Source: an uncultured Vicinamibacterales bacterium (GTDB lineage Bacteria > Acidobacteriota > Vicinamibacteria > Vicinamibacterales > UBA8438). From it: 64,000 nucleotides of DNA. The notes under the pieces are model-generated. The model did no database searches. It saw nothing but the letters and a program-made list of their open reading frames with translations, and was not told where the DNA came from. The stretch is from NCBI GenBank assembly GCA_958295905.1, contig CATQHG010000001.1, positions 1 to 64,000 of the forward strand, written 5' to 3'. The stretch's first letter is position 1. Every line of letters starts with the position of its first letter. The position numbers and the translations under genes were made by a program. Shown piece after piece: positions 7,909-60,066 of this stretch.

Positions 7909-7927
7909 CGGCGGGCGCGTACCGACG

Positions 7928-13500: not shown

Positions 13501-13574
13501 CGGCCGCCGCGCCGCACCGGGACCGGTCGCCCGCCGCGCTGCGCCGGGATCGGTCGCCCGCCGTGGAACTCTTC

Positions 13575-31255: not shown

Positions 31256-32610
31256 GCGCTAACTTGTTTTCGCGACGTGGCCGGCGTATCCTGGCATGCG
31301 GATGCATGACACGGAGACCGGCACAGTGGACGAGGACTGGGAGGTGCTGTTGTCGTTCCTCCCCCGGGACTGGCGCGAGTTGGCGCAGAACACCGGGGCG
31401 CTGAAGGGGCTGCGCAAGGACAAGACGGTCGACAACCTGCTGCGGACGCTCCTGCTGCACCTGGGCTGCGGCCACTCGTTGCGGGAAACGGTGGTTCGCG
31501 CCCGACAGGCGCATCTGGCGGACCTGTCCGACGTGGCGCTGTTGAAGCGGCTGAAGAAATCCAAGGGCTGGTTGCACGCGCTGTGCGTGCGTCTGTTCGA
31601 GGAGCAGGGCCTCGCGGTCGTCCCCGGGGGCGCGTTCCAGGTGCGGGCGGTGGATGCGACGACGGTGAAGGAACCGGGACCGAGCGGGTCGCTGTGGCGC
31701 CTGCACTACAGCGTGGGTCTGCCGTCGCTGACGTGCGACTTCTTCAAGCTGAGGGAACCGAGGGGCCGGGCGCGGGAGAGTCGTTGGCGCAGTTCCCGAT
31801 CCGTGCCGGCGACCATGTCCTGGCCGACCGCGGCTATTCGACGGCCCGGGGCATCCGCCACGTCGTGGACGCGGGCGGTCGGCTGATTGTGCGTGTCAAT
31901 ACGGGGTCGCTGCCGCTGTACACGGCGTCCGGGCGGCCGTTCGACCTGCTGGCCGCGGTGGGGTCGGTCACGCGTCCGGGCGCCGTCCGGTCCTGGGCGA
32001 CCACGGTCGCGGCGCCGGGTTGACGACGGCCGCCCGGCGGGCAACGTTCCGGGCCGGGTCTGCGTGCTCCGCAAGTCGGCGGAAGCCATCCGCTTGGCGC
32101 ACCGGAAAGTCCGTCGGGACGCCGCCCGCAAGGGCAACCGGGTGCAACCGGCGACCCTGCGGTTCGCCGAGTACGTGATCGTCTTCACGACCTTCCCCGA
32201 GCCGCCCTTTTCCGCCGCGGACGTGCTGGAGTGGTATCGCCTGCGCTGGCAGGTCGAATTGGTGTTCAAGCGCTTCAAGTCGCTGGCCCAGTTGGGACAC
32301 GTGCCGAAGTACGACGACGACAGCGCCAAGGCTTGGCTCTACGGCAAGCTGTTGGTGGCCCTGCTGGTGGAGAAGCTGGTCCACCATGCCCGCGCGATTT
32401 CCCCCTGGGGCTACGACGTGCCGACGCCGGCTCCCCCGCAGCGCGTGGCGTGACTTCAAGTTCGTGCTCAACCAAGTCACGCGCACCATTGAGCCGCCGC
32501 TCCCGCTGGCGCACATGATCAGGGACTGGCGAACGATCTCCGGCGATCTGGCAGAGCCGCCACGTCGCCGACAGTGTAGAGTCGACGACTGGCGCGGTGG
32601 CGGTAGGCGG
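31253..32610 (+). mobile_element. degraded IS4-family insertion sequence
   Basis: The element starts at the point where the exported-protein gene breaks off (about 31253) and contains a transposase gene with several frameshifts. I cannot find a matching pair of terminal inverted repeats, so the right end, near 32600 where the group II intron begins, is approximate. Confidence 0.6.
31296..32570 (+). pseudogene. IS4-family transposase, broken by at least three frameshifts
   Basis: Pieces of one DDE transposase are read in succession: 'DWEVLLSFLPRDWRELAQNT' to 'FQVRAVDATTVKEPGPS' (first Asp); then 'AGDHVLADRGYSTARGIRHV' (second Asp) in another frame from about 31745; then 'VLRKSAEAIRLAHRKVRRDA' and the IS4 signature 'WYRLRWQVELVFKRFK' (Y-x2-R-x3-E-x6-K) in a third frame from about 32025; and finally 'RDFKFVLNQVTRTIEPP' after a last shift near 32445. 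It is inactive as it stands. Confidence 0.85.
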
Positions 32611-32694
32611 ATGGGGGTAGCTGTTTCCGGCCGCTTTCGCCCGGTGCCGGTGCCTCACTCCCCGCCGTGACTCCGTTTCCAGTCGCCGCTCATC

Positions 32695-32727
32695 GAACCG
32701 GACATGCGGATTTCCCGCATCCGGCTC
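32695..32727 (-). ncRNA. group II intron domain V
   Basis: Read on the minus strand, 'gagccggatgcggg', a GAAA-like turn, and then 'tccgcatgtccggttc' form the 34-nt hairpin typical of domain V. It carries the catalytic AGC triad and the two-nucleotide bulge side. It lies just downstream of the maturase C-terminus, as expected. Confidence 0.75.
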
Positions 32728-32737
32728 TCGGACGAGA

Positions 32738-34075
32738 TCATGCCTTCGCCCACGGAAAGCTCGCCGTGCGCTGCGCAAGGCACGTGAGCCCGTACTCCTG
32801 CCGGAGTCGCTCGTTCGGGAAGCGCACACTCTTCCCGGACCGCACCTTGTGCTTACGACAGAGCCACTGGCGCAGCCGGCGCGTAGCATGCTGGTCAACG
32901 GCGCGATACGCCGGGCTGACCTGCCCAAGGGTGAAGTAGTTCGCCCAACCGGTCAACGCCCGGTTGAGGCGCGCCACCACTACCCCCGGCGACAGGAGCC
33001 CGCTGCGTCGTGTCGTCAGCCCGCTCACGCGGCGGCAGATGCTCCGGACGCTCTCCGGCTCGGACGCGTGCCGATGTAGGCGGCTCCCGTGTCCGGCCGG
33101 TAGTTGCGCCCAATCCGGTAGCCGAGGAACGTCATCGGCTCCTCCGGCACCCGGCAGCTGCGGGTCTTCTCGGCGTTCATCGGCAGCTTCAGACGCTTCA
33201 TCAGCCCTTCGACCGCCGTCAGCATCGCCGCTGCCGGCGCGCGGCCGAGGACCGCGAAGTCGTCCGCGTAGTTGACGATTTCCGCCTTGAAGCGCCGGGC
33301 GTAGCCCAGCACCTTCCAGCCGAGGATGAAGCGACGCATGTAGATGTTGCTGAACAGCGGCGAAATCGGCGACCCCTGCGGGGTCCCCTTCCGCTCCCGA
33401 CGCGCCCGGTTCGTGCGGCGGCGACCGCCGCGCCCGTCGTCCTCCTCCACCGCCATTTCCAGCCACGCCTTGACCCAGCCCAACAGACGCCCGTCGCTCA
33501 CGCGACGCGCGATGGACCGCATCAACTCCGCGTGCGGTATCCGGCCGAAGTAGTCCGACAGGTCGGCGTCCACCACCTCCCGGCGCCCCGTCGTCAGCAG
33601 CCGGTGCGCACGCCTGACCGCGTCAAGCGCGCCCCGGCCCGGTCGGTAGGCGTATTGCTCCGGTTGCAGGTCCGCCTCGAAGATCGGCGACAACACCAGC
33701 ATCGCCGCCGTCTGCGCCACCCGGTCCCGGAGACACGGAATGCCAACGGCCGGAACTTCCCGCGTTGCTTCTTCGGGATGAGCACCTGCCAACCGCACGC
33801 GGCCGGTAGGTCCCCTCCTTCAGGTCCCGCGCCAGTGCCCCCAGCCACCGGTCAACCCCGAACGACTCGACGCCCGCGACCGTTTCGCCGTCCACCCCGG
33901 CCGACCCGCCGTTGCGGCGGACCGTCTGCCAGGCGACCGCGAACACGTCGTCGCGCCACACCTTGTCGCTCGGCGAGTAGAACCGGAAGCCCGGAGCTTC
34001 CTTCGCTTTCGCATGTAGCGCCGTCTGGAGTCGCTGAACTCGTTCTGAGGCGGTTAGGCTCGCACCAGTCCCCAC
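32738..34075 (-). pseudogene. ltrA: group II intron reverse transcriptase/maturase, at least three frameshifts
   Basis: Successive frames give an N-terminal RT0-like region ('SAGVDGETVAGVESFGVDRW', from about 34075), 'VLIPKKQRGKFRPL' (about 33790), then 'GIPCLRDRVAQTAAMLVLSP' through 'KGTPQGSPISPLFSNIYM' and the catalytic 'VNYADDFAVLGR' (YADD), and finally the maturase/X domain 'VVARLNRALTGWANYFTLGQ' with 'LRQWLCRKHKVRSGKS'. Joins lie near 33805, 33740 and 33085. All catalytic residues are present, so one or more shifts could be sequence errors. As read, the enzyme is not produced. Confidence 0.88.
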
Positions 34076-34594
34076 GTCCCTTCCTCCGTCATGCGCTGCT
34101 CTCGAACCGAGGCCCCTTCCCTCCGCCGGCGTTACCCGGCTTCCCCGGTACTACGGGCCTCTCCGCCACCCCCGCCGGCCCGACCTGACCCTCACGGGCT
34201 GTCAGTTGGCGCGTGCCACGCCACCGGCGGGGCTTCCCGTGTTGCGTCCATCCCCCTCTTCCATGCGTGCCGCCGCCAGTACCCCGGCGGAACCGGCCGG
34301 TACCCCCGTCGCTCGCTTCCCGACCCGTGGCAGCCTTCCCCGTATCGTGGGCGGGTCGGCTTCCGCATTCGTCGTTTCGAGGCCTGCTCGGCGTTCACTC
34401 GCGTTGCGGCCCGCATGGTCGCTGAGCCGCCCAATGGCGGCCCGTTGTCGTCGGAGTGCTTCAGGCGATGTCGTTGCCTCCATCGTCCGCTCCGACTGCT
34501 ACCGGCTGGAGCGACAGTTGCCGGGCGGGATTCGCACCCGCTGAGGAATGGCGCCTTCGCACGGCGCACCGCAACTTCCGCCTTGAAAATCCCA

Positions 34595-37583: not shown

Positions 37584-40500
37584 ATGACTGACAACACAAG
37601 GCGCATCGCGGCATCTCTGACGAGCAGGGACGACCAACACACCCGACGGTACCGAAACGAGAGCAACGTCAAGCTCGACCTGTCGCAACTGATCGACACG
37701 ATGGGCTACGGCCCCGTCGAGAACGAGCACGCAACCGTCGACGGTTTCATCGACATCTACGTACCCCACCACCGCGTCGTCATCGAGACCAAAGCTCGGG
37801 GACTCGCGGTCGATCCGCACATGCCGCAAGGCGGCGGCAGGGAGACCCCGAAAGAGCAACTCGACCGCTACGTGTTGAGCGAGATCCGGAAAGAACTCGA
37901 ATCGTTCGACTGGAATCCGGCGGACCGGTCCCAGCACCCGTGGATCGGAGTTGTAACCGACGGGCACGCGTGGCATGCATGGCGGTACCCACACACACAC
38001 GACCCCGAGGCCGAAACCATTTCCTCAATCACCGCAGACAGCGGCGAGACGCTGATCGCAGGGTTGAGGAACGCGTTCGGAGAAGAACGTGCAGGGAAGC
38101 AATGGGTGCCGGCGGCCCCCGCTGATCTGTTCCGAGATCACGCAACGACACTCAACGAGCTGTACCACCGGCTGCCGCGCGACGTGCGCGGGCGAACGGA
38201 GACGAAGCGTCGCCTCTGGCTTGACATGCTGCGGGTCTCGGGGATTGCGCCGCACGACAACGATGCCGACAGGCTGTTCGTGACCCATTCGTTGCTGATC
38301 GCGATCGCGCGCATGGTAGCGTACGGGCTGACCCCGCAGGCAAAGAACTGGGAAGGCGCGCTGAAAGACGGCTTCGTATCGTGGATTACCGACTCGCACA
38401 CCGGGAACGAATGGGCAAACGGCCTTCACCTGACAATCGACCGGCACGACTGGAAGCGCCGACAGAACGACGTGATGCAGTCCCTGTACATGGACTTTGT
38501 GTCGGCCACCGACCGGAAAGTGTTCGGCGAGTACTACACCCCGGATTGGCTGGCGGCGCTGATCGTGGGCGAGGCGCTCGACGACGCATGGCGCAGCAAC
38601 GCCGTCGAGCAGGCTGAATCGGCAGGACGCTCAGGCGCTCGCCTGGAAGGGCTCGGGGTGCTGGACCCGACCTGTGGATCCGGCACGTTCCTGTACCACG
38701 CCGCGCGACGGATTCTCGACGCACCGGAGATGCGGGAGCTCAACCCGGTACAGCAAGCCGACATCACGGCAAGCTTGATCCACGGCATCGACGTCCATCC
38801 GGTCGCCGTCGAGATCGCGAAGACCAACATGATGCGGGTGTTGCCCACCGCCCCGACGATGGGAAACGCAGCCATCCATATCCGCATGGGCGATTCGCTG
38901 ATGACCGACGGAGACCCGACGAGGCTGTTCGAAGTCGAGGGTGCCATGCGAATCATGACGCCGAAGAGACGCGAGATCCTGCTGCCAATGAACTTCGTCC
39001 GCCGGTCCCGGTTCGCGGACGACATGGGTCGCGTCGTCAGCGCGGCCATACAGAAGACGCCGGTGCCCGTGCCCGTACTGGGCACCTTGGAAGCAGCGGA
39101 CCGCAAGGGCGTCGAAGAGGCCCGCGACGCGCTCGAAGACGCCATCAGCGAGGAGGGAAACTCCGTCTGGACGTGGTACGCGGTCAACATCGCCGCCCCG
39201 AAGCTGCTTTCCGAGCACAAGGTCGATCGGATCGTGGCCAACCCGCCGTGGGTGAAGCTGTCCGATATCCAACACGAGCCGCGGAAGCGGGCGATGGAGA
39301 GGTTCGGCGAACGCCTCGGGATCTACCAAGGCGGCAGGCAGGCCCCGCACACCGACATCGCGGCCTTCTTCATCCAGCGCACCCGTGAGCTCTACCTGAA
39401 GAACCCGAAGGAGAACCCGGCAATCTGGCTCGTGAAGAAGTCGTCGCTGAGAGCCGGCCAGTGGAGCGCGTTCCGTAAACTGCACCGGGGCACGTTGGCG
39501 CAATCCGTCGATCTTGAAGACCTCCAGCCCTTCGGGGGTGGGGACGCCACGCGGTGCTGCCTCCTCCTCGAACACCGACCCATGGCCCTGGCCGCGGGTT
39601 CGAGACAGCTGCAGGCCCTACGCAAGATCGACGACAGTACGAAAGTGCCGACAGAACGCCCGCGGTTGCACGAAGCACCCGAAACTGCAATTGAACGGAT
39701 ACGTTTCACGGCGGCAACGTCGCAGGCGCCGCAAGCGCCGTCCGGCTACCTCACGTCCACGGGCAAGCCCGTGTTCCGCCAAGGCGCAACGGTGCTTCCA
39801 CAGGTGCTGACCATCGTGGATAAGACGGAGCCGGCACCTGAGCGAACCCGGGTCCGCGCGACCACACGAAAATCCACAAAGACGCCATGGAACGGCGTGA
39901 AGCCACGCACAATCGAGATTCCGAAGCACTGGCTGATCGACCTCTGCACATCGAACAGCATGGCGGCATTTGTGGTGCGCACGATAAGAGCAATCGTTCC
40001 ACTGGACGCCCAAGGCACCCTGCTCCCGCTACGCGAAATCAACGAACAGGGCTGGCTGCTGCTCAACGATCTCTACAAGACGCATGCTGGCACAGGCAGG
40101 CACACGCCCGGAACCCTTCTCGAACGGATCGATCATCTGCGGAATCTGACGGTTCAGCTCCCGCTACGACAGGACGCACAGCGGAAACTGGTGCTGTACC
40201 CGAAATCAGGGGACATGATGAGGGCCGCGCGCGCACGAGCTGGGCACGCGGTCATCGACCACGGCTTGTACTGGTACCGCGCGCGCACGAGTGGAGAAGC
40301 CGCGTACTTGGCAATTCTCCTGAACACCGGCTGCCTGCAACAGGCGTACGCCGATTCCCGCGAGAGCGGTCGCGACTTCCATCTGCAACCGTGGCGGAAG
40401 GTGCCGATCCCGCGGTACGACAAGACGATCCCGCTCCACACCGAGATCGCCAAGCTCTGCACGCAGGCCGAAAAGATCGCGGCGACCACGGTGAACGAAG

Positions 40501-40631
40501 AACTAGAGGCCACACCGGGGAAGGGCCAAGTCGCCCTGTCGAAAGCAATCCGCAAGGCCTTGGCAGACGCTGGAGTCGATGTTGCGATGGACGAGTGCGC
40601 TCGACAGCTTCTACCAGACCACGCGGCGTAG
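37584..40631 (+). CDS. single-chain restriction-modification enzyme (type IIG-like N6-adenine methyltransferase with N-terminal nuclease)
   Basis: This 1015-residue protein has a PD-(D/E)XK-like nuclease near its N-terminus ('VDGFIDIYVPHHRVVIETKA', about residues 52-75), a helical region, and an N6-methyltransferase domain with motif I 'GVLDPTCGSGTFLYHAARRI' (about 352) and motif IV 'RIVANPPWVKLSD' (NPPW, about 550). A C-terminal specificity-like region follows ('YWYRARTSGEAAYLAILLNT'). The gamma-class order (motif I then IV) and single-gene layout fit type IIG/Eco57I-like enzymes. No separate specificity or restriction gene is adjacent, and a BREX PglX role is unlikely without partner genes. 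ATG 37584 starts the region with normal composition; upstream in-frame codons look non-coding. Confidence 0.85.
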   Translation: MTDNTRRIAASLTSRDDQHTRRYRNESNVKLDLSQLIDTMGYGPVENEHATVDGFIDIYVPHHRVVIETKARGLAVDPHMPQGGGRETPKEQLDRYVLSEIRKELESFDWNPADRSQHPWIGVVTDGHAWHAWRYPHTHDPEAETISSITADSGETLIAGLRNAFGEERAGKQWVPAAPADLFRDHATTLNELYHRLPRDVRGRTETKRRLWLDMLRVSGIAPHDNDADRLFVTHSLLIAIARMVAYGLTPQAKNWEGALKDGFVSWITDSHTGNEWANGLHLTIDRHDWKRRQNDVMQSLYMDFVSATDRKVFGEYYTPDWLAALIVGEALDDAWRSNAVEQAESAGRSGARLEGLGVLDPTCGSGTFLYHAARRILDAPEMRELNPVQQADITASLIHGIDVHPVAVEIAKTNMMRVLPTAPTMGNAAIHIRMGDSLMTDGDPTRLFEVEGAMRIMTPKRREILLPMNFVRRSRFADDMGRVVSAAIQKTPVPVPVLGTLEAADRKGVEEARDALEDAISEEGNSVWTWYAVNIAAPKLLSEHKVDRIVANPPWVKLSDIQHEPRKRAMERFGERLGIYQGGRQAPHTDIAAFFIQRTRELYLKNPKENPAIWLVKKSSLRAGQWSAFRKLHRGTLAQSVDLEDLQPFGGGDATRCCLLLEHRPMALAAGSRQLQALRKIDDSTKVPTERPRLHEAPETAIERIRFTAATSQAPQAPSGYLTSTGKPVFRQGATVLPQVLTIVDKTEPAPERTRVRATTRKSTKTPWNGVKPRTIEIPKHWLIDLCTSNSMAAFVVRTIRAIVPLDAQGTLLPLREINEQGWLLLNDLYKTHAGTGRHTPGTLLERIDHLRNLTVQLPLRQDAQRKLVLYPKSGDMMRAARARAGHAVIDHGLYWYRARTSGEAAYLAILLNTGCLQQAYADSRESGRDFHLQPWRKVPIPRYDKTIPLHTEIAKLCTQAEKIAATTVNEELEATPGKGQVALSKAIRKALADAGVDVAMDECARQLLPDHAA

Positions 40632-41040: not shown

Positions 41041-41465
41041 TCAAATGCGTGTGGGTAGGGGCGGCACCAGTTCGATGCCTCCGCAGCACAGGAACAGCAT
41101 CGAGATGAGCGCACCGGCCGAGTGGAAACCGTACGCGCGCCGCGCAATCACACGCAGCTTGTTGTTGATGCCCTCCACCGAACCGTTCGTCATCCGGGTG
41201 TCCAGATACGCCAGGATGCCTTCCGCGTGGTTCCGAATCGTGCGCCCCAGCTTCACGAACGGCGCCAGGCGGGACCGCGCAGCCCACTCCAGCCACTCCT
41301 CCAGCAGCTCTGGCGCATCCTCGGGCGTCGCCTGACCCAGGATCGTCGCCAGATACTCCTTCAGTTCGTAGGCCCGGTCCAGCGCCCGGTTGTCACGGCG
41401 CAACGTCTCCAGACGCCGGGCTTCGCCGGGCTTCAGCCGCCCCGGGTGCTTCAGCAACGCATGTC
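41041..41465 (-). pseudogene. ISL3-family transposase, 3' fragment
   Basis: About 140 C-terminal residues remain: 'PGRLKPGEARRLETLRRDNR', 'LDRAYELKEYLATILGQATP', and the conserved 'MTNGSVEGINNKLRVIARRA' with 'YGFHSAGALISMLFLCCGGI' that marks the end of the ISL3 DDE domain (third acidic residue in VEG). The 5' part of the transposase is missing. The break joins directly onto the cas4-cas1 gene at about 41462, so this element truncated the adaptation gene. Confidence 0.85.
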
Positions 41466-42239
41466 GTCGATGGTCACGACCAGAGTCTCTCCCGATTTCG
41501 CCACCTTGGCGTGGCGCGCCTGCACGTAGAGCGGCAGAGCTTCCGTGCAGGGCACGGCGATCGGCCGCGGAGCCGTCGTCGTACGGGTCAGACGGTTGAC
41601 CTCGTCCGGCAGGCAGATCCCGACCAGCGAGCAGCGCGGACACTTGGGACTGTCTTCGAGCGGCGGCGGGATGACGCCCTCCGTGGCGGCGCGCCGCAAC
41701 CCGTCGACCGCTTCGTGCGTGGCGGCGACGAGATCGTCGTCGAACACCACCCGCACGCGCTCGCGGCTGCCGACGAAGTAGAGCACCCCGTCGGTGCAGT
41801 CGTAGCCGTGCTCGCGCAGCAGCAGGCCCTGCACGCAGAGCTGCACCCGCTCGGGATCGTGCGCTCCCCGTTCGACATGGGGCCGTTTGCCGCGCTTGTA
41901 GTCGACCGGCGTGACCCGGCCGCCGTCCGATTCTATGAGGTCCGGCCGCGCGATCAGTCCCAGGCGGCGGGACGACAAGGTGATCGACCGCGCATGCAGC
42001 CGGGAAGCCCCGTCGCCCCGCGACGGCGCCGGCAGCGACCCGCCGTCGCGGTTGACCCGCCGGTGGGCGTGGCGGCCCTCGACGGTGTCCGCAGAGTCGG
42101 CCCACTCGCTCTGCACCCACTCAAGATAGGCGAGCCGCGGACAGTAGACGTACTCGTTGACCATGCGCGCCGGCACGAGGGGCGCGTCGGCTGGCGGGTA
42201 CGGAATCGACGGCGGCGCCCGGTGGTCCGGAGCTGGCAC
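41451..42239 (-). pseudogene. cas4: Cas4-Cas1 fusion of a type I-G (I-U) CRISPR system, truncated at the start of Cas1
   Basis: Cas4 trims and orients new spacers and Cas1 integrates them; type I-G systems fuse the two. The Cas4 domain is complete: 'MVNEYVYCPRLAYLEWVQSE' (first Cys), 'LGLIARPDLIESDGGRVTPV' and 'DYKRGKRPH' (RecB-like nuclease core), and the cysteine cluster 'CPRCSLVGIC'. After a linker, Cas1 begins, 'TEALPLYVQARHAKVAKSGE', and stops after 29 residues where the ISL3 fragment starts ('DDMRC', TGA). Start GTG 42239 has a GGAGG upstream; frames further upstream are repeat DNA. No cas2 follows. Spacer acquisition should be lost, though the Cas4 part could still fold. Confidence 0.85.
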
Positions 42240-42274
42240 GGCACCTCCGATATCCGATGTTCGGCATATCAGCC

Positions 42275-42425
42275 CGTGGTAAAACTCCGCGGCGCGCCGG
42301 AACTGGCCGGCGGTGGCGCGGAAACGGCTCGGTTCGGCCGGATTTCGACCGCTGTACGAACATTCTTGAGCCGAGTACGGCCCGGCCGGATGCAGCGCAA
42401 CTTCTGCCACGGACTGATACGGGTC
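42275..42425. repeat. dispersed ~150-bp repeat, inverted relative to 59707-59868
   Basis: The segment from 'cccgtggtaaaactccgcgg' through 'ggaaacggctcggttcggcc', 'gccgagtacggcccggccgg' and 'cttctgccacggactg' matches the reverse complement of 59707-59868 with small indels. At 59.7 kb it is inside a Cys-rich hypothetical gene. Here it forms the leader of cas4. Its ends resemble each other ('cgtggcaaaactccgc' and 'acttctgccacgg'), so the unit is partly palindromic. Confidence 0.75.
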
Positions 42426-42458
42426 GTTTCGGCAGTTCGAGCCGTCCGCGGTAGGGCG

Positions 42459-42570
42459 CGCCGGATGCCGGACGCGGCGTGCGAGCCGGTTTCCGCGACC
42501 CGAGGGCAACGCACAGCGCGAACCCTTGATACGCCGGATGCCGGACGCGGCGTGCGAGCCGGTTTCCGCG
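42459..42570. repeat. 39-bp direct repeat with 34-bp spacer next to the cas genes (possible minimal CRISPR unit)
   Basis: Thirty-nine identical bases starting 'cgccggatgccggacgcggc' occur at 42459-42497 and 42532-42570, separated by 34 unrelated bases, a period of 73. The position between divergent cas4 and cas3/csb1 genes fits a CRISPR remnant, and the lengths fit type I-G arrays. But only two copies are present, and I cannot verify the repeat against known arrays. Confidence 0.5.
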
Positions 42571-42959
42571 CCGGGAACCGGTCGATCAGCCGGTCCCGAC
42601 CGCGGAATCGGCCGCAAGCGGCCGGTCGGACGGGTCGGACGTCAGAACGCCTGATCGGCGCCGGACGACGCCGGCCGCAATCCGCACGTCGTTCGTCGAA
42701 TGTCCGGGAATGTCCGGCGTCCATGGCCAAGTGCCTGTACAATTGCGCATCGTGGTGGTGCATCGTTCGTTCGTCGGATACGAGAACGAACACCGAGGAC
42801 CGCCCAGAGGAACCGTTGCAGGTTGGCGGCGTTGAACGCAGCACCGGACTTCGCTGCCGTCGGGTAGGCGGCAGCCGCGCCGGTTGTACCGTATCCGGGC
42901 GGGAACGACAGCCGCGCCGGCGGGGACCGACTGACAGGATCTGACAACGAGCCGTGTCA

Positions 42960-43480
42960 GCCTGCCGTTCGGAAGAAATGGCCTCTTCGCGGAATCGCGC
43001 ACGAGGAATCGCTTGGACGGGCCACCCTCTATCGCATCGCGCTCGGAGACGGGAAGCGCCCCGACCCGTGGCAACGGGTCCTCACGACCGGGGCGTGGCC
43101 TCTCGGATCCTGGTTGCGCCGACCGGATCGGGCAAGACGGCCGCGGTGACGCTCGGATGGGCCGCGCACCGGTTGCGGAACCCGGCCGGACGCCCCGGCG
43201 ACTAGTCTGGTGTCTGCCCATGCGGACGCTCGTCGAGCAGACGGCGGAGTCGGTCGGGGAGTGGTTCGGCAGGTTGGTCGAAGTGTGCGGCGAGACGCTG
43301 CTCCCGCGGCCCGATGACGTGCACGTGCTCATCATGGGCGGCGTGGACGGCGGGGCATGGATCGAGACGCCGGAGCGCCCCGTGGTGATCGTGGGAACCC
43401 AGGACATGCTGCGTAGCCGCGCATTGATGCGCGGCTACGCGTCGTCCCAGGCAGTTGGTCGATGGCAGTTGGTCGATGGA
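42960..43480 (+). pseudogene. cas3: N-terminal fragment of a second cas3 helicase gene
   Basis: Pieces in shifting frames give 'ATLYRIALGDGKRPDPWQRV' (about 43025-43085), 'ILVAPTGSGKTAAVTLGWAA' (Walker A, about 43100-43160) and 'RRLVWCLPMRTLVEQTAESV' to 'VVIVGTQDMLRSRALMRGYA' (about 43195-43440). These are the Q-motif, motif I and early helicase region of a Cas3 distinct from the intact one at 46460. Sequence similarity ends at about 43450, where 'cagttggtcgatgg' is repeated twice, then csb1 follows. The rest of this Cas3 was deleted. Confidence 0.75.
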
Positions 43481-43522
43481 ATCTCACGTGCCACCCATCC
43501 GTGGCCCTGACAAGGAGACGTA

Positions 43523-49339
<5,817 letters not shown>

Positions 49340-49341
49340 TC

Positions 49342-50262
49342 ATGAATGGAACGCATCTCACCGGGCTGGAAGGCACGAACCCCTTGGGATTCCTGGCTGC
49401 CCTTGGCGCACAGGTCGTCTTCACCACCGACTCTGAACAGCCACGTCTATGGTGGAGCGACGATATCACTCCACACGCAGTCGTGGACGCCGATATCACC
49501 GTTGACCGAATAGCCGATCGGGCACTGGAGGTTTGCGGGGAGTGGAGCGACAGCGCGGCACTGACGCCGCGGCGTCCTGACGGCTCCGCGATGCCGCAGG
49601 GTGACGAACTCAAACTCGCGCCGGTCGACGCGCGGACTTGGCTCGAACATGTCCGCGAAAACGATTCCGCGGAATCCCTGATTGCCGCGCTCGTGGCGGA
49701 GGGGAGCTTGGACAAGCAAGGTGTCACCAAACCCTCGGATCTCTACTTCACAGCGGGGCAACAGAAGTTCCTGGACATGGTCCGCCAGATCCTGAGCGGG
49801 GTGTCACGGGAGGATCTACTCATAGGACTCGATGGGCCATGGAGCTACCGCAGCCGACTCCCTTCCCTGATGTGGGACGTCAGCGACGATCGGGTGTACG
49901 CGCTGACAGCCGATGATCCGGCAAAAGAAAAAAAACTCACCAACCCTGGTCCCGAAGCTTTAGCCATCCTGGGACTGAGCCGGTATCCGGTGTTCGCGGA
50001 CCGAGGCCGGACGCTCACGCAGGGATGCTCGGGATCTTGGAAGAGCGGCAGCTATTCATGGCCTCTTTGGCGAAAACCGGCATCACCGCATGCCGTTAAG
50101 GCGGTGTTGGCGCATGCCTTCGACCACCCGAAGGCCACCAATCGCCAGCGCTGGTTCCGCTCGTGGGGTATCGCTATGGTTCTCCGATCACCGATTCGTC
50201 GCTCCGGGCAGGGAGGTTATGGCACATTCGGCCCGCCGGAAGTCGCATGGCAGGCACCATGA
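49342..50262 (+). CDS. type I-G CRISPR large-subunit candidate (Cas8u-like)
   Basis: This 306-residue protein begins two bases after cas3 (ATG 49342) and carries 'LTGLEGTNPLGFLAALGAQV', which is how many Csx17/Csb3-like type I-G accessory or large-subunit proteins start. Later features are 'SDLYFTAGQQKFLDMVRQIL', 'LDGPWSYRSRLPSLMWDVSD', 'GPEALAILGLSRYPVFADRG' and 'SYSWPLWRKPASPHAVKAVL'. It would recognise the PAM and start R-loop formation. The exact subfamily (Cas8u1/Csx17 or Cas8u2/Csb3) cannot be settled by eye. It ends shortly after 'QGGYGTFGPPEVAWQAP', which looks like a normal C-terminus. Confidence 0.75.
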   Translation: MNGTHLTGLEGTNPLGFLAALGAQVVFTTDSEQPRLWWSDDITPHAVVDADITVDRIADRALEVCGEWSDSAALTPRRPDGSAMPQGDELKLAPVDARTWLEHVRENDSAESLIAALVAEGSLDKQGVTKPSDLYFTAGQQKFLDMVRQILSGVSREDLLIGLDGPWSYRSRLPSLMWDVSDDRVYALTADDPAKEKKLTNPGPEALAILGLSRYPVFADRGRTLTQGCSGSWKSGSYSWPLWRKPASPHAVKAVLAHAFDHPKATNRQRWFRSWGIAMVLRSPIRRSGQGGYGTFGPPEVAWQAP

Positions 50263-52780: not shown

Positions 52781-53029
52781 TCAGGCCGCAACGCCGCGTA
52801 CCGGCTTGCCGAGAAAGAACCGGATGTCAGCGCGGCGGGCGGCCCGGGCCGTCGCCGGCCAGTCCAGGGCGGCCGCGCAGTGCAGGTCCGTCCACCCGTT
52901 GCCGTCCACCGCCGACGCGGACAACTTGCGGCCGAGATGGGCGGCGAGTTCCACCGGCGACGTGACCGACGGCCGGCGCCCCCGCCCTGCCGGGGCAAGC
53001 TCACGCCCCGCCTTCTTCCCGTTACTCAT
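52781..53029 (-). CDS. short ankyrin-repeat-like protein or fragment
   Basis: An 82-residue frame from ATG 53029, with AGAGGG nine bases upstream, contains 'ELAAHLGRKLSASAVDGNGW' and 'TDLHCAAALDWPATARA'. This matches the start of an ankyrin repeat (D-G-x-T-x-LH-x-A-A). Only one repeat is visible before the frame ends in 'FFLGKPVRGVAA'. It may be a truncated ankyrin protein. It is the last minus-strand gene below the large Lon-type protease, 235 bases away. Confidence 0.45.
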   Translation of the reverse strand: MSNGKKAGRELAPAGRGRRPSVTSPVELAAHLGRKLSASAVDGNGWTDLHCAAALDWPATARAARRADIRFFLGKPVRGVAA

Positions 53030-53264
53030 GGAGTGTCCCTCTGTTGCTCTGGATCTGCGCGGTGTCGCCGCCGACCGGCTCCGACTGCCGCGCGTTTGTC
53101 ATCGATGCCGACCGCCGCCTGACCGTGCGGCCGATGTCGGCCGGGGGGCGGCTTGCCGCGCCGCGCACACCCGGTCGCGCCCGACGGCGCGAACGGGTTT
53201 CTGCGAGTTAGAGTCGCCGGCTTCGCCGGCCGCGGCGGGGGTGGACGGGCGGCCCGGCCGCGGG

Positions 53265-56200
53265 CTACGCCGCGGCGTCGGGAAGCACCACCGCGAGCAC
53301 GTCGCCCATCGTCCTCACGTAGCGCACGGCGATGCCGCACGGCAGCCCGTCGCCGAAGCTCTCCGAGATGTCGGCCTCGTTGGCCGACGGCAGGATTACG
53401 GCCGCCATCCGTGCCCGGCACGCCCCAAGCACCTTCTCCCGGATGCCCCCGACCGGCTGCACCGCGCCCGCGAGCGTCAACTCACCGGTCATCGCGACGT
53501 CGCCCCGCACCGGCCGCCCCGTCAGCGCCGAGACCAGGGCGACGGCCACCGTCACCCCCGCCGACGGGCCGTCCTTCCCCCGGGCCGCCTCGGCCAGGTG
53601 CACGTGCACGTCCGTCGAATCGTCGAACCCCGCGACGCCGGAGAGGCGGTCCGCATACGAGCGCACCCACGTCATCGCGACGTCCGCCGACTCCCTCATC
53701 ATCGGCCCGACCGTCCCGGTGACGCGCAGCGTCCCGCGGCCGGGAAGGCGCGCCGCCTCGACGAGCAGCACGTCGCCGCCCCCGCCGGTGACGGCCAGAC
53801 CCAGGGCGACGCCCGGCCGGCGGGTGCGGGCGGCGATCTCCCCGCTGCGGAACCGGGGCGCCCGCAGCCACGCGGACACCGTTTCCGGCCCCATCGCCCC
53901 GGGCAACGGAAGACCCTCCGCCCGCAGGCGCGCCGCTCTGCGGCAGAGCCCGTCGATGCCGTCGTCGAGGAGGCGCACGCCCGGTTCGCGCGAGTAGCCG
54001 CTGATCAGGAGTTCGATGGCCGCCGGAGAGAACGACAGCTCATCGGCGGACAACCCGTGCCGCCGGCGCCGGTGCGGGACCAGATGCCCGGTCGCGATTC
54101 GCTGCTTCTCCGCATCGGTGTATCCGGCCAGCGGCAACGCTTCCAACCGGTCCTGCAACATCGGCGGGATGCGCCCGGGGTCGGTCGCGACGGCGACGAA
54201 CAGCACGCCGCCCAGGTCCAGCGGCAGGCCGACGTAGCGGTCGCGGAAGCGGCGGCGGCGCGCCGGGTCGAGCGCGCCGAGCAGCGCGTCGGCCGCCCCC
54301 ACGCCCATCCGGTCGAGCCCGCCGAGGACGACCAGCGGGTTGTCGCCGGTGTGCCCGGGCGGGGGGCCGAGCCGCCGCAGGGCGTCGACGAGGCGCCCCG
54401 GCCCCGCGTCCGGAGCGGGTCCGGCGACGCCGAGAATGCCCGCCGGCTTCTCGACGCCGGCCAGCGAAACGCGCGCGAAGCGGCGCCCGAGAGCGGCGGC
54501 CAGCGCCCGGGCGAACGCCGTTCTGCCGGTGCCCGCCGGCCCGCAGAGACACAGAATCTCGGCCGCGGCGGCGTGGCCGCCGCCCGCGCCGCCGTCTGCG
54601 GAGGCCTGACGGGCCACCAGGTAGTCGAGCGCCTGGTCCTTTTCCCGGGCGCGGCCGACGTGTTCACGGTCGAGCGCCCGCCGCAGCCGCGCCGGCGACG
54701 CGGGCCGCTCCTCCGAACGCCGCCACGGCAGTTCCTCCACCACCTCGATCCACGCCTGCGCGGCGGCGGCCCCGGGGTCCGCCGGATGGAGGCCCACCAC
54801 GCGGTCACGCTCCCGGGAGACCGCATCCCGCACGTGGTCGGGCAGCGAGTCGTACCGCGGCGGTCCCAGGATCTCGGCCACGCTGTAGTGGAGCCGCGTC
54901 GGGTCGAGCCCTGCAGCCCCGCCGCCGCCGGCCACGACGGTGACCGGGACGGCGGCGCCGGTCTCCACCCGGCGGCACGCCACGAACTGGCAGACGGCGC
55001 CGAGCTGCCGCGCGAGCTGCCGTACCCCCGCCTCGCAGGTATGGCCCCGCACCACCGCCCGGATCGCCGCATCCGTCACCTCGACACCCCCCGCCGGCGG
55101 CGGCCCGGGCCGGTTCGCCGCGGGGGCGGCCGCCGGCGTCGTCACCGCCGCCTTCCCTCCATCGAGCACCTCCACCGCCGGCCGCCGGCGGGCCGGCACC
55201 GCGCCGGAAGCCCCCTCCGGACGTTCCCGGCGCGTCGCCGTCGGGGTCCGGGTCCAGAAGCCGCCGGCGCTCAGCCCGCTGACCTCGAGCTGCTCCCCCC
55301 ACAGGGTGCGCCGCACGATGGCGACCTTCTCGTCGTCCGTGTACCCGGGCGCCTCGATGATCTCCAGCCGGTCCCGCAGCGGGGCGGGGATCTTCGCCGG
55401 GTCATTGGCGGTGGCGATGAACAGAGTCTCGGACAAGTCGACCGGCACCTCGATGTAGGCATCGCGGAAGTGCGTGTTCTGCGCGGGGTCGAGCACTTCG
55501 AGCAGCGCCGCCGACGGGTCGCCGGAGTTCGTCGTCGCCCCGCCCACCTTGTCGATCTCGTCCAGGATCATCACGGGGTTGCGGACCCGGGCTTTCTGCA
55601 GCCCGAGGACGACCCGGCCCGCCTGGGGCGACCGGAAGCTGATCGGCAGGCCCCGGACCGCCGATTCATCCCAGACGCCGCCCAGGGCGACGAGCACGCC
55701 CGGACGGCCCAGCGCACGGGCGATCAGCATCGCCAACGTGGTCTTGCCCCCGCCGGGCGGGCCGGCGAAGCACAGGATCGGCGGCCGGGCGGCGGACCGG
55801 GCGGGGCGCACGACGAGGCGGCGGAGCGCCGCCGGCGCCGAACCGTCCCCGCCGCGGGAACGGCCGCCGCGGACGCGCCCTTCCACGGTCCACATCGTTG
55901 ACGTCAACCGGCGCGTGGCCAGGAAACGCCGGATCCGCTCCTTGAGCGCCGCGCGGCCGGCGTGGGCCGCTTCCAGCTCCGCCATCGCCGCCCCGATGTC
56001 GACCCGTTCGCACGCCCGCGCGGTCCACGGGAGGTCGAGCACCACCCGAAGCCGTTCGAGCAGCGCGGCGGCGGCCTCCCGGCCCGCCGTCTGCACCATG
56101 CGGATTTCGTCGAGGGAGCGGGTCAGCACCGGAAGCGGCAGGTCGCAGGCCTCGAGCCGCGCGAGCACCTCCCGCGCCGCGGCCGCCAGACGGTCGGTTG

Positions 56201-57449
56201 ACTGCCGTTCTTCGTCCAGCGCCTTCAGACCATCCCGCACCGCCGCGACCGCGCCGTTCGGCAGGCTGTCGCCGTCCAGCACCTTCCGCGCGTCCTCGAA
56301 GCGGCGCAGTACGAGCCGGATGCGCCCGACCGCGGCGTCGCTCCATTCGCCGGCTTCGACCCCGCGCCGGGCGTCGACCACGCCGCGGATACGGCTGACC
56401 GCCTGCCCGGCCGCCCGTTCGAATCCCCCCAGGGCCTTGTCGCAGGCCGCGGCCAACCCCTCCCCGGGGATGTTCCCGGCCGGGTCGTCTTCGACCCGCT
56501 GCAGCAAACACCGGAACGCGGACGGCGACGGCGCAATCTCCATCCCGTCGAAATCCAGCCTCCCCAGGGGCCCGCCGACCTTCCGCAGGCACCTCCTGAT
56601 CAGCCGGCACGTTCCCGCCGCCCGCTCGGCCGCCTCATCCGACCCGGCTGCGACGCCCGCATCGCCGAGACGGTGCGGCGTGACATCCTCCCGCCGCAAT
56701 GCCGCGAGCCGGCGGCGGGCATCCTCGAGTTCCCGAACCGCCGCCGTCTCGAGGGGCTCGATCAGCGCATCGATCGACTCCAGCAGGCTGTCGATCCCCG
56801 GCTGCCCGCACAGGTCCCGGAACGATGCGCGGACGTCGTCGGGGATGGGCCCCCGGTCGTGCTTCAGGTTCACCGTCGCGGCCGGGTGTGTTCGCCCGCG
56901 CCGGCGCGCTCCGACGGCGCCCCCGTCGCTGTCTTCGTCGTCGAACCCGTTCCCGCCGCCCCCGAAGAGGAGGTCGACCGCCTCGGCGGAGTCCACCACC
57001 CGAACGGCGTCGTGCCCCTCGATCGTGTCCACACCCCCCGGGGCGGCGTCGGGGGCGGCCGTCCCGTTCGCCAAGTCCGGCAGGCCCCACGCCCGGCGCT
57101 GCGAATCGCTGGTCACCACGTAGTGTCCGCCGCACGGCGTCTCCGCCGTTGCCGCTTCCCCTTCCCCGGCCGGTGTTGCGCCCTCGGCGGGGTCGGCGGA
57201 TTTCGTCCCGCCGGGCGGCCGGCGCCGGATGCGCTCGGCCAGCCGCGCGATCAGCGCGGGGCGCTCGGCGGGTTTCGTCTCGACGTTCGGCCGGGTGGAG
57301 GTCTCGACCTCCGCCCGCGCCTGTTCGTACTCGGCGGGGGTCTCGGGAAGCAGCAGCGTCACGCTGCCGGACATCTCGGCGCCGGCCGCGCAGGCGCCCT
57401 TCTCGTCACGAGACGGGCCGTCATCGGCTCTCAACACATAGCGTTGCAT
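53265..57449 (-). CDS. Lon-type ATP-dependent protease with two tandem AAA+ modules, the second degenerate
   Basis: Lon proteases unfold and degrade proteins; the usual order is N-domain, AAA+, Ser-Lys protease in about 800 residues. This one has 1394. After an acidic, low-complexity N-terminus (1-200) and a long helical region (210-520), module 1 starts 'LDLPWTARACERVDIGAAMA' and has Walker A 'GPPGGGKTTLAM' (about 563), Walker B 'PVMILDEIDKVG' (about 625) and sensor 1 'TLFIATANDP', ending at 'AEILGPPRY'. Module 2 repeats the layout ('ELPWRRSEERPASPARLRRA'), but its Walker A is 'GPAGTGRTAFAR' (Lys to Arg, about 970) and its Walker B 'LVVLGGLDRMG' lacks the DE pair. The protease domain has 'GKDGPSAGVTVA' (Ser about 1295) and 'PVGGIREKVLGA' (Lys about 1338). 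It is uninterrupted by frameshifts. GTGGAG precedes ATG 57449. Confidence 0.93.
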   Translation of the reverse strand: MQRYVLRADDGPSRDEKGACAAGAEMSGSVTLLLPETPAEYEQARAEVETSTRPNVETKPAERPALIARLAERIRRRPPGGTKSADPAEGATPAGEGEAATAETPCGGHYVVTSDSQRRAWGLPDLANGTAAPDAAPGGVDTIEGHDAVRVVDSAEAVDLLFGGGGNGFDDEDSDGGAVGARRRGRTHPAATVNLKHDRGPIPDDVRASFRDLCGQPGIDSLLESIDALIEPLETAAVRELEDARRRLAALRREDVTPHRLGDAGVAAGSDEAAERAAGTCRLIRRCLRKVGGPLGRLDFDGMEIAPSPSAFRCLLQRVEDDPAGNIPGEGLAAACDKALGGFERAAGQAVSRIRGVVDARRGVEAGEWSDAAVGRIRLVLRRFEDARKVLDGDSLPNGAVAAVRDGLKALDEERQSTDRLAAAAREVLARLEACDLPLPVLTRSLDEIRMVQTAGREAAAALLERLRVVLDLPWTARACERVDIGAAMAELEAAHAGRAALKERIRRFLATRRLTSTMWTVEGRVRGGRSRGGDGSAPAALRRLVVRPARSAARPPILCFAGPPGGGKTTLAMLIARALGRPGVLVALGGVWDESAVRGLPISFRSPQAGRVVLGLQKARVRNPVMILDEIDKVGGATTNSGDPSAALLEVLDPAQNTHFRDAYIEVPVDLSETLFIATANDPAKIPAPLRDRLEIIEAPGYTDDEKVAIVRRTLWGEQLEVSGLSAGGFWTRTPTATRRERPEGASGAVPARRRPAVEVLDGGKAAVTTPAAAPAANRPGPPPAGGVEVTDAAIRAVVRGHTCEAGVRQLARQLGAVCQFVACRRVETGAAVPVTVVAGGGGAAGLDPTRLHYSVAEILGPPRYDSLPDHVRDAVSRERDRVVGLHPADPGAAAAQAWIEVVEELPWRRSEERPASPARLRRALDREHVGRAREKDQALDYLVARQASADGGAGGGHAAAAEILCLCGPAGTGRTAFARALAAALGRRFARVSLAGVEKPAGILGVAGPAPDAGPGRLVDALRRLGPPPGHTGDNPLVVLGGLDRMGVGAADALLGALDPARRRRFRDRYVGLPLDLGGVLFVAVATDPGRIPPMLQDRLEALPLAGYTDAEKQRIATGHLVPHRRRRHGLSADELSFSPAAIELLISGYSREPGVRLLDDGIDGLCRRAARLRAEGLPLPGAMGPETVSAWLRAPRFRSGEIAARTRRPGVALGLAVTGGGGDVLLVEAARLPGRGTLRVTGTVGPMMRESADVAMTWVRSYADRLSGVAGFDDSTDVHVHLAEAARGKDGPSAGVTVAVALVSALTGRPVRGDVAMTGELTLAGAVQPVGGIREKVLGACRARMAAVILPSANEADISESFGDGLPCGIAVRYVRTMGDVLAVVLPDAAA

Positions 57450-57950
57450 TATCTACACTCCACAAAAGTCTGTCCGGTTCTGTCCGGCGATATCCGCACC
57501 GACCGCGGGAGACGGCGGCGCAGCGGTCGGACCGGCGGGACCGCCGCCCCGACGGTTTTGCCTCACGGCATCCACGCAGCAGCGCCGACCCGCGCGGGGG
57601 GAGGGTCGCTTCCCAGTCCCGCGTGACCACGGCCGCTCCGCGTGGGCGACGGGCGTCGGCGCCGGAGCTGAGGCCGGACCGCGGGCTGAAGCCCGGCCCC
57701 GACCGCTTTCCCGGTCCCGGTTTCTCGTGACGACCGCGAAACGAGTTCAAGCGGCTGCGGTGACGACCCGCACGACCCCCCCGCCCGCCGGCGCGGAGCA
57801 TCGTTCGCCTGCCGGGCCGTGCGGAGCCGTCACCCGGGCGGCGGCCGGAACGGGCGGCTGAACGGCGGGGTCTTAATGGGTGCCGGCGCGGGGACCGCGC
57901 CGGCCGGCATCGCCGCGCCTCCCCCTCCGCGGGCGGACGGGGCGGGCGGT
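57450..57950. other. 500-base leader/intergenic region upstream of the Lon-type gene
   Basis: No gene is seen. On the minus strand, just above the Lon start, 'ccggacagaaccggacagac' (57470-57489) carries two direct copies of CCGGACAGA ending about 21 bases before the ATG. They could be an operator. Most of the rest is GC-rich without hairpins that stand out. Confidence 0.4.
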
Positions 57951-58457
57951 TCAGCGCTGTATGCGCGGCGGGGGTTGCCGCCGTACGTGTTCGGGCGGGT
58001 ACGCATCGGCTTCGGTCGGCAGCATCAGCTTGTCGCAGAGCCAGGACCGGCGGGCGCAGTCCCAGAGGACCTGCTCCGACGCCTCCGCGTCGCAGCCGAT
58101 GTACGAACGGCCCTCCCACTCCAAGGGGGCGTCGGGGCCGTCGAGCGGCGCGGCCAACGCGAATTCGACGTCGATCTTGAGGCCGGCGCCGCGCCCCGGC
58201 ACGTTCGTCACCGTGTACTTCAGCGCCCGATGTCGGATTTCCAACCCGACTTTGCTCACGATCCCGCACGCCTTCCCGTAGGCGGCCGAGGCCGCCGTCT
58301 TCAACGGCTCCTCCTCCGCGTGCTCGTTTCCGGGGACGCGCTCGACGCGCGGGAGAATGTCGTCGACGATCGGGGATGTCAGCCGTATGGCTTCGAAGAA
58401 CCTCCTTATCCTCGTTAGATCGATGCGGCCGCGTTCGGTCTGTTCGTGTCTTGTCAT
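57951..58457 (-). CDS. hypothetical protein upstream of the Lon-type gene
   Basis: A 168-residue protein from ATG 58457 with AAAGGA nine bases upstream. It is mixed alpha/beta: 'DLTRIRRFFEAIRLTSPIVD', 'LKTAASAAYGKACGIVSKVG', 'IRHRALKYTVTNVPGRGAGL', 'KIDVEFALAAPLDGPDAP' and 'EWEGRSYIGCDAEASEQVLW', with a proline-rich tail. The composition is that of a real cytoplasmic protein, but I recognise no family. It is read in the same direction as the Lon gene, 501 bases before it, so it may be a partner or substrate; that is inference from position only. Confidence 0.6.
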   Translation of the reverse strand: MTRHEQTERGRIDLTRIRRFFEAIRLTSPIVDDILPRVERVPGNEHAEEEPLKTAASAAYGKACGIVSKVGLEIRHRALKYTVTNVPGRGAGLKIDVEFALAAPLDGPDAPLEWEGRSYIGCDAEASEQVLWDCARRSWLCDKLMLPTEADAYPPEHVRRQPPPRIQR

Positions 58458-58599
58458 GATGGTGTCCTTTCTTCACGTTGGAAACGAGTCTGCGGTTGTG
58501 TAACGGGCACACGCCGTACCCGGCGCTATGCCCTTGGGAGGGTGTACTGAATTAAGTTGCCAGCTTGGTGCAGTTCCGATCATACTCGCAGCATGAGAC

Positions 58600-59194: not shown

Positions 59195-60066
59195 TTACTG
59201 CACCGTGTCCCGATGCAGCCGCCGCGCGGCCACTCCCCCGACGGTGTCGTATACGGACCGACGGACCGCCTTGTAGATCCCGCGGGACACGGAAACCCGG
59301 CTTGCTATCGCCGTCAGGAACACCCCCGCCGCCCCGACGTAATCGGCCAAGTCGGCGGGCGGCAGGTCGGCGCCGGCAGAGACCGTGAACGTCAGGTCAT
59401 GGACGCGCCGATCGGCGCCGACGCCCGCCGGCACCCCCGCGTCAACGTAGTGCCGCAGGAAGTGCAGCGCCGCCGCCGCAACCACGGGCATCGCGGGCGG
59501 AACCCGGATCACCATGAAGGGAACCGCATCCCCGGGCTCTACTGTGAACAGGGTCAGGCTCGCCGATTGCAGGATAGGCCGGTGCGGGGCGGCCGAAGCC
59601 AGCGCGCGGGCGTAACCGGCGTCGACCGCGCAATCCCAACACAGCACAGGGCCGCCGTCGGGGTCGGGGCCGATCCGGAACACCCACTCCCCCCCGGGTA
59701 CCGTGCGGTTACCAGTCCGTGGCAGAAGTTGTGCTGAATCCGGCCGGGGCCGTACTCGGCCCAAGAACGTGTCGTACAACGGTCGAAATCGCCGAAATCC
59801 GGCCGATCCGAGCCGTTTCCGCGCACCGCCGGCCAGTGCTGACGCGCTGCGGAGTTTTGCCACGGGCTGTTACACGTCTCGCAGACACGGCCGAAGGGCC
59901 CCCCCGTGTAGCCCCATTCCCCGTCCAACAGGGCACGGCGCCGCGCCCGGCGGGCCAGCCACACCCGGGCGCAGGGGTTGCACCGATGATGCGTGCCCGG
60001 CTCGCCGTCGCGGCGGGCGGGTTGCGGCCTCTTGCCGCAGTCGATGCACAGGCCGGCGTCAGTCAT
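59195..60066 (-). CDS. cysteine-rich zinc-ribbon-like hypothetical protein, frameshifted
   Basis: From ATG 60066 the first frame gives a probable zinc-binding start, 'GLCIDCGKRPQPARRDG' and 'HHRCNPCARVW', then 'RVCETCNSPWQN', ending in nonsense after 'HNFCHGLV'. The continuation is in another frame: 'VPGGEWVFRIGPDPDGGPVL', 'CWDCAVDAGYARALASAAPH', 'DLPPADLADYVGAAGVFLTA', stopping at 59195. The frames join at about 59690-59715, giving about 290 residues with four CxxC pairs. The middle contains the 150-bp dispersed repeat shared with 42275-42425. The ATG overlaps the stop of the small gene above it (ATGA). Family unknown. Confidence 0.6.

Follow-up and report, generated by a model that had tools for sequence, protein, structure and literature searches.

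Tandem AAA+ modules, the second of them degenerate, in a Lon protease of an uncultured Vicinamibacterales bacterium, and its two- and three-module relatives

The DNA analysed here is a stretch of 64,000 nucleotides (positions 1 to 64,000 of contig CATQHG010000001.1, assembly GCA_958295905.1) from an uncultured Vicinamibacterales bacterium; this whole stretch is referred to as the window. It carries one open reading frame (ORF) on the minus strand, at 53265-57449 including the stop codon, for a protein of 1394 amino acids (aa) designated P0001. This protein is an accessory LonA-type protease whose single chain contains a multiplied AAA+ module. Met26 (position 57374) may be its true start, and lies near where the start of the related protein P0005 falls. 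The gene, its parts and an upstream ORF, with the basis of each assignment, are as follows:

53265-57449, minus strand: tandem-AAA+ Lon gene P0001, 1394 aa (Pfam, module profile, TIGR00763); later start at 57374 possible
56088-57449, minus strand: N-terminal region of P0001, residues 1-454 (Pfam, comparison with P0005)
54939-56087, minus strand: AAA+ module 1, residues 455-837, motifs intact (Pfam, module profile, motifs)
55740-55763, minus strand: Walker A of module 1, GPPGGGKT, residues 563-570 (motif)
55104-55235, minus strand: insert between the AAA core and the lid of module 1 (module profile)
53904-54788, minus strand: AAA+ module 2, residues 888-1182, degenerate (profile, motifs, predicted fold, structural match to Lon)
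54519-54542, minus strand: Walker A of module 2, GPAGTGRT, residues 970-977, Lys replaced by Arg (motif)
54309-54332, minus strand: Walker B of module 2, VVLGGLDR, both acids gone (motif; the homologue in a second assembly, L074, has LGELDR)
53283-53885, minus strand: Lon_C Ser-Lys protease domain, catalytic motifs intact (Pfam, motifs)
57951-58457, minus strand: 168-aa ORF upstream of the lon gene (within the block common to the window and L074)

A Pfam scan of P0001 gave two stretches each for AAA (PF00004) and Lon_lid (PF22667) and a single stretch, at residues 1189-1389, for Lon_C (PF05362; E 4e-58). A profile of the Lon module (LPW entry helices, AAA core and lid) was derived from ordinary Lons of the same order (30 frames, 27 distinct modules). 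It identified one module in each of the 30 frames and two in P0001: module 1 at residues 455-837, matched in three pieces owing to inserts (core 202 bits), and module 2 at residues 888-1182 (194 bits). Both methods thus agree with an earlier, sequence-only reading of this DNA, in which the Lon middle region was said to occur twice before a single intact Ser-Lys domain in the 1394-residue frame. The catalytic KDGPSAG (residues 1292-1298) and the Lys helix GGIREKVL are both intact. The NCBIfam Lon model TIGR00763 scored P0001 at 643.2 bits against a cut-off of 608.05, in two separate stretches, so that a pipeline using this model would label the protein plain 'endopeptidase La'; the same label would apply to all five of the proteins P0001-P0005 described below. 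In the N-terminal region (residues 1-454) no Pfam family was matched at E up to 10, weak matches being filtered, and under the same settings the LON domain PF02190 had no match in residues 1-451. In P0002, PF02190 gave E 0.2 at the position where the domain would be expected; P0003 and P0004 gave no match. The P0001 N-terminal region is weakly similar to the N-terminus of P0005 (E 9e-5).

The two modules differ in the state of their motifs. Sensor, arginine-finger and pore-loop positions were assigned by what we take to be their identities in E. coli Lon. Module 1 has GPPGGGKT, ILDEID, TAN, DRLE, GVR and the pore-loop Phe, i.e., every named position is intact. Module 2 has GPAGTGRT, VLGGLD, VAT, DRLE and GVR; it has lost the Walker A Lys, the Walker B acids, the sensor-1 Asn (replaced by Thr) and the pore-loop aromatic, and retains the arginine-finger and sensor-2 arginines. 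The GPPGGGKT and DEID that the sequence-only reading had placed in module 1, and the GPAGTGRT without an acidic Walker B pair in module 2, were found at those modules, the Walker B stretch of module 2 reading VVLGGLDR. Judged by its motifs, module 2 is without the residues for ATP binding and splitting in cis and for gripping substrate, and two arginines remain.

An AlphaFold2 model of P0001 residues 440-1394 was computed from an alignment of 38 sequences (mean predicted local distance difference test score, pLDDT, 79.3; predicted template modelling score, pTM, 0.56). The part comprising module 2 and the protease could be superposed on two LonA structures, 4ypl_F (Z 35.9, root-mean-square deviation (rmsd) 3.5, 513 residues) and that from E. 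coli, 6u5z (Z 34.4, rmsd 3.2, 511 residues). The model is biased toward the Lon fold, since its alignment contained 33 ordinary viral Lons over module 2 and the protease. The sequence-only reading had named a non-AAA+ structure of module 2 as the finding that would overturn it; the profile match and the predicted fold superposing on 6u5z speak for AAA+ instead. The P0003 homologue in L074 was modelled as well (mean pLDDT 78.7, pTM 0.52); this model, too, had Lon as its best match (6u5z, 531 columns), with mostly low confidence in the N-terminal 240 residues.

A homologue of the window protein was found in a second assembly. One genome per species, for 84,980 species, was scanned with a pattern derived from the N-terminal region of P0002-P0004. 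Of the 71 stretches returned, three were relatives: L074 (CATQHP010000001.1), L075 (CATQHX010000066.1) and L076 (JAJDTI010000172.1, its lon gene cut by the contig end), with record titles naming Bryobacterales, Vicinamibacterales and Pseudomonadales, respectively. L074 carries a P0003 homologue (2564-6058) and a P0001 homologue (7829-12010), adjacent and on one strand. The latter (L074b) is open over 1393 codons and 97.0% identical to P0001. At the DNA level, a 5.5-kb block (window 53021-58533) is 96.8% identical between the two assemblies; outside it they have in common only a dispersed 163-bp repeat, which indicates that the lon gene and the upstream 168-aa ORF were moved or rearranged as a block. 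The L074 counterpart of this ORF is 149 aa long and lies between the two tandem Lons. The 168-aa ORF had no Pfam or PADLOC match.

This second copy bears directly on whether the double module is an artefact. Several lon genes are present in the window's genome (G000), where two of them might have been collapsed or fused during assembly, an outcome that the sequence-only reading had named as fatal to its claim. The same layout was found in the separate assembly L074. The two P0001 modules are 35% identical to each other, and are therefore not a collapsed repeat; compared with the nearer of two ordinary G000 Lons, they are 48% (module 1) and 40% (module 2) identical. In the module tree described below, P0001 module 2 clusters by position with modules of other proteins. 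On the second assembly, the inter-module identity and the module tree, the artefact explanation is very improbable and was rejected.

Comparison of P0001 with its L074 homologue gave a ratio of non-synonymous to synonymous substitution rates (dN/dS) of 0.53 (33 synonymous and 45 non-synonymous changes). By region, dN/dS was 0.61 for the N-terminal region, 0.45 for the module-1 core part, 0.40 for module 2 and 0.285 for the protease; for the module-2 core it was 0.21 (4 synonymous and 2 non-synonymous changes). For P0003 and its L074 homologue (97.1% identical), dN/dS was 0.44. Fisher tests on changed versus unchanged sites were performed for (i) the whole P0001 gene (p = 0.008), (ii) module 2 plus protease (p = 0.02), and (iii) P0003 (p = 0.002). 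The P0001 gene, as well as its part coding for module 2 and the protease, is under significant purifying selection; as few changes were counted, this result shows that the protein has been kept and not how strong the constraint is.

P0001 is not the only Lon of this type. G000, in which the window lies on contig C2 (147 kb), has eight Lon_C matches, among them two ordinary Lons, the window gene and two weak matches (L007 and L008; 66 and 28 bits). Contig C1 encodes two tandem Lons ~7 kb apart, P0002, of 1271 aa (its start may lie 29 codons further in), and P0003, of 1164 aa; both AAA+ modules are intact in each. A broken relative, L020, has one module core remaining. In G035, a genome of the same family, P0004 is a double-intact Lon (1238-aa frame), and ~16 kb away on the same contig P0005 is a three-module Lon in one 1416-aa frame (modules A, B and C at residues 178-543, 579-860 and 913-1196). 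The number of TIGR00763 stretches in P0001-P0005 (2, 2, 2, 2 and 3) matches the module counts. Among 176 module-matching frames from 179 loci, more than one near-complete module was found only in P0001-P0005 and the two L074 proteins. The homologue search proposed with the sequence-only reading thus yielded three doubles, one triple and the L074 homologues; no gene neighbour was common to all the tandem Lons compared, those found being local only.

Within P0005, the middle module B alone keeps every named residue. Module A has the Walker A Lys (GPPGTGKM) and the arginine finger, with Walker B, both sensors and the pore loop gone; it is split at about the same profile position as the insert in P0001 module 1. 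In module C both Walker motifs are retained, and the arginine finger, the two sensors and the pore-loop aromatic are missing. A C-type module in P0006, a protein truncated at the end of its contig, retains both Walker motifs and the arginine finger; its two sensors and its pore loop have been lost. No named ATPase or pore-loop position is altered in P0001 module 1, in P0005 module B or in either module of P0002-P0004; in every module without the pore-loop aromatic (module 2 of P0001 and of L074b, P0005 A and C, P0006 C) ATPase residues have been lost as well. There are, then, two kinds of multi-module Lon: doubles with two intact modules (P0002, P0003, P0004), and the P0001/P0005 kind, in which only one module has every ATPase residue and the protease-adjacent module is degenerate. 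The N-terminal regions also differ between the double-intact kind and the P0001 kind. The sequence-only reading had proposed a new Lon architecture: the tandem modules and the degenerate state of the second stand, while P0001 is not a lone oddity, P0002-P0005 being spread over two genomes. Since these proteins are multi-module too, the broader novelty is the multi-module Lon, and dead modules are confined to the P0001/P0005 kind.

Long frames did not mark doubles: frames of 1002, 947, 1187, 1166 and 1298 aa each contained a single module, and a 1420-aa frame in G010 had one weak partial module match only (30 bits). Three other observations concern Lon-like pieces. The chromosomal contig C1 carries a truncated copy of the window's Lon gene (L019:5871-7583), which covers residues 12-511 at 95% identity and lies beside ORFs that by eye are transposase-like. 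On four G035 contigs (C6, C13, C15, which is L065, and C64), Lon_C stretches were found in 369-aa frames with near-equal scores (139.8-140.1 bits); they perhaps ride on a repeated element. On the plasmid-like contig L076, a 165-aa ORF (391-888) resembles the N-termini of P0001 and P0005 (~30% in a many-gapped alignment).

In a tree of the modules, P0001 module 2 joined P0005 C and P0006 C (99/97) and not P0001 module 1. The first modules of P0002-P0004 joined P0005 module B, L020 and L044 (89/89), their second modules formed a clade of their own (100/99), and the 27 ordinary modules formed one clade (99/97). As modules cluster by position, the doubling within each kind predates the split of its members. 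When P0001 module 1 or P0005 A was left out, P0001 module 1 fell among multi-module Lon modules (88) and P0005 A was unplaced; without P0001 module 1, the ordinary modules no longer resolved as one clade. In a tree of the protease domain, P0002-P0004 grouped with ordinary Lons (83) and P0005 with P0006 (97), with P0001 apart. A single origin is thus not established, because the multi-module Lons are not one clade in the protease tree and the ordinary clade is unresolved in the rebuilt module tree.

Beyond the domain content, the motif losses, the predicted fold of module 2 plus protease, the relatives and the selection, all of which are directly established, we lean towards a stacked-ring Lon as a somewhat probable arrangement. 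In it, a live distal motor would feed substrate via a passive Lon-type ring into a fused protease chamber. Six P0001 chains would form stacked rings on a fused protease hexamer, with substrate presumably selected by the N-terminal region; module 1 would hydrolyse ATP and, with its pore loop, grip the chain; and the dead second module would serve as a passive collar or gate of Lon shape, the chain being pushed through it, in what is the presumed direction, into the Ser-Lys chamber. The combined loss of the pore-loop aromatic and the ATPase residues in module 2 fits a putative passive ring. To the wider proposal we would give an even chance: that Lon evolved multi-ring proteases, some with two motors (P0002-P0004) and some with one motor and one or two dead rings (P0001, P0005), the protease chamber being fused below and the protease-side dead ring maintained separately as a collar.

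The main rival to the stacked-ring arrangement concerns the two arginines. In some AAA+ hetero-rings, dead subunits offer arginine fingers to the sites of their neighbours. P0001 might similarly be a regulatory subunit in mixed rings with a double-intact Lon such as P0003, in which module 2, itself unable to bind or split ATP, would donate the arginine finger. Module 2 does keep the trans-acting arginine and sensor 2 and loses the cis ATP-site residues, and the two homologues in L074 are adjacent on one strand. In G000, however, P0003 is encoded on C1 and P0001 on C2, the two kinds have different N-terminal regions, and P0005 module C shows the reversed pattern of loss, with the Walker motifs kept and the arginine finger gone. 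By analogy with such hetero-rings mixed rings may be formed, which we consider unlikely.

Several points weigh against the stacked-ring arrangement. With dN/dS near 0.5 and few changes, purifying selection on the gene is moderate only, and the module-1 insert has a dN/dS of 3.6 over nine changes (8 non-synonymous and 1 synonymous). The tie between P0001 module 1 and P0005 A is weak (83/63), with long branches in both; given where the two modules fell when the tree was rebuilt with each left out, the derivation of P0001 from a triple by loss of module B is just a suggestion. P0001 was also not grouped with P0005 in the protease-domain tree. The structural model (pTM 0.56) does not fix how modules 1 and 2 lie with respect to each other, and module 1 was assigned by profiles and predicted secondary structure, since module 2 and the protease filled the list of structural matches. 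Finally, broken or fragmentary relatives are found in G000 (L020), G012 (L044 and L045), G025 (L066) and, as a fragment, G001 (L046), so that genes of this kind often decay.

These relatives, together with the moderate dN/dS and a Walker B that differs between L074b (GELDR) and the window (GGLDR), are what would be expected if P0001 were a duplicated-module Lon turning into a pseudogene, the state of module 2 reflecting loss and not design. Such a gene would hardly be open over 1394 and 1393 codons in two assemblies, with no loss in the protease motifs or in the named ATPase residues that module 1 carries, and with purifying selection on both the gene and its module 2 plus protease part; moreover, the protease-side modules are degenerate alike in P0001, L074b, P0005 and P0006. 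Decay is in our view improbable.

Intact multi-module forms were found in two of the 28 genomes of the family (G000 and G035), and broken or fragmentary ones in three more (G012, G025 and G001). Among 162 genomes of the order, a profile of the double-intact kind detected no further full double of that kind at E 1e-150, and a search with P0005 at E 1e-100 gave matches only in G012 and G035, plus a single-module Lon in G068. In a sample of 396 genomes of the phylum, the double-intact profile found G000 alone (E 1e-246); 396 phylum genomes were searched with P0005 with no positive control among them. P0001 itself was used as a query against G000 and 20 relatives, the result being read among the matches listed. 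As P0001 scores E 1e-118 with the double-intact profile, the wider searches would miss a P0001-like protein at these thresholds, and P0005 at 1e-100 gave no match in G000, the genome of P0001 itself. Beyond the phylum, coverage consisted of the single pattern scan described above. Of the 133 plasmid and 12 phage records matched, the 15 and 10 matches listed, respectively, all had places shorter than 2.4 kb, which indicates ordinary or partial Lons. None of 84 module-bearing frames at viral loci (84 of 88 loci examined) had two modules.

Some small ORFs accompany the broken lon genes. ORFs containing Cys residues are located directly upstream of the broken Lon in L020 (L020:7723-8112), at the start of the broken Lon in L044 (L044:4884-5486) and downstream of that in L045 (L045:8959-9345); the only match was a weak one to a zinc ribbon (E 0.019, L020). 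An ORF of ~295 aa without a Pfam family (L020:1583-2470 and L044:3393-4277) is 85% identical across the two genomes.

The usual division of AAA+ proteases is between one-module proteins (Lon, ClpX, FtsH, HslU) and two-module ones (ClpA, ClpC), with Lon as the standard one-module case. Lons with two and three full modules break this division. The resulting one-, two- and three-module series, with live and dead rings, would allow one to ask what role an extra ring plays in grip, unfolding force or gating; if the multi-ring reading is true, these Lons would be a natural experiment on the reason for ring stacking in AAA+ proteases. They are easily overlooked, because the annotation model labels them plain 'endopeptidase La'. 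Among the matches listed in searches of open-licence papers there was no tandem-AAA Lon, in line with the sequence-only reading, which knew of no equivalent. The two- and three-module architecture is real, common to a few related proteins, and new for Lon. One account classes Lons as one-module (class II) AAA+ proteins and argues that LonA may hold part of a second module (PMC6722904); described LonA has one AAA+ module there and in the accessible sections of a further paper (PMC9569914). A table of the architectures of 117 Lon-like proteins, as far as it is available, includes no AAA-AAA-Lon_C arrangement (PMC2605481).

Among known systems, P0001 is closest in its parts to LonA (E. coli Lon, human LONP1; TIGR00763). 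It has the Lon_C Ser-Lys domain and a TIGR00763 score above the curated cut-off; each module has the LPW entry, AAA core and Lon lid, the protease has KDGPSAG and the Lys helix, and module 2 with the protease superposes on 6u5z. Unlike LonA, which has one AAA+ module in the parts of those sources that are available, P0001-P0004 have two and P0005 three, and the P0001 N-terminus has no profile match to the LON substrate-binding domain (weak matches filtered). Tandem AAA+ modules in one chain, and probably a two-ring logic, are shared with the class I Clp ATPases (ClpA, ClpC, ClpB; D1 and D2), from which P0001 differs in that both modules are Lon-type and the protease is fused and of family S16. 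The ClpA model TIGR02639 scored P0002 at 34.7 bits of the 993.15 required, and P0001 was not listed at E up to 0.001. LonC (MtaLonC) has been described as a Lon protease topped by an AAA+ ring that lacks the canonical ATPase motifs (PMC3391209). Module 2 plus protease of P0001 shares this property and module 1 does not: LonC as described there is without a live motor, whereas P0001 has an intact module ahead of the dead one. A weak match to BrxL, a Lon-related protein of BREX (bacteriophage exclusion) systems, in the Lon_C part (PADLOC 2.7e-13) was rejected as an identity, with 41.2 bits against an NCBIfam cut-off of 628.25.

The surroundings of the multi-module Lons point to an accessory, mobile and perhaps defence-rich setting. 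A type I-G cas cluster is found 3.0 kb away from the P0001 gene, and the window's contig also carries a MobA/MobL relaxase (L068). In G035, the genes for the double P0004 and the triple P0005 flank a type I restriction-modification set. Beside the lon gene of L076 there are matches to RepA and RepB-primase, an S24-type repressor, an integrase and a tRNA-Arg. No exact end overlap was detected on contig C2.

The type I-G CRISPR-Cas locus (window 41451-50262) comprises Cas4, proteins of the GSU0053 and GSU0054 families, Cas3 and a Cas3-extension protein, and is adjoined by a piece of an ISL3 transposase (41041-41457). No CRISPR array was seen in window 38000-64000, where direct repeats were two-copy only. 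A type IIG restriction-modification-like protein is encoded at 37584-40631 (PADLOC 2.4e-33), and a group II intron at 32597-34543 gave two Rfam matches on the minus strand around ORFs that by eye are reverse transcriptase-like. The dispersed ~163-bp repeat (window 59710-59872) occurs on C1 and C2 in no fewer than 40 copies with an identity of at least 88% (40 of 155 candidates scored). The window further contains an array of ~102 bp units (13526-14071) and an exact 120-bp tandem duplication (16934-17174; 100% matches) inside a predicted gene.

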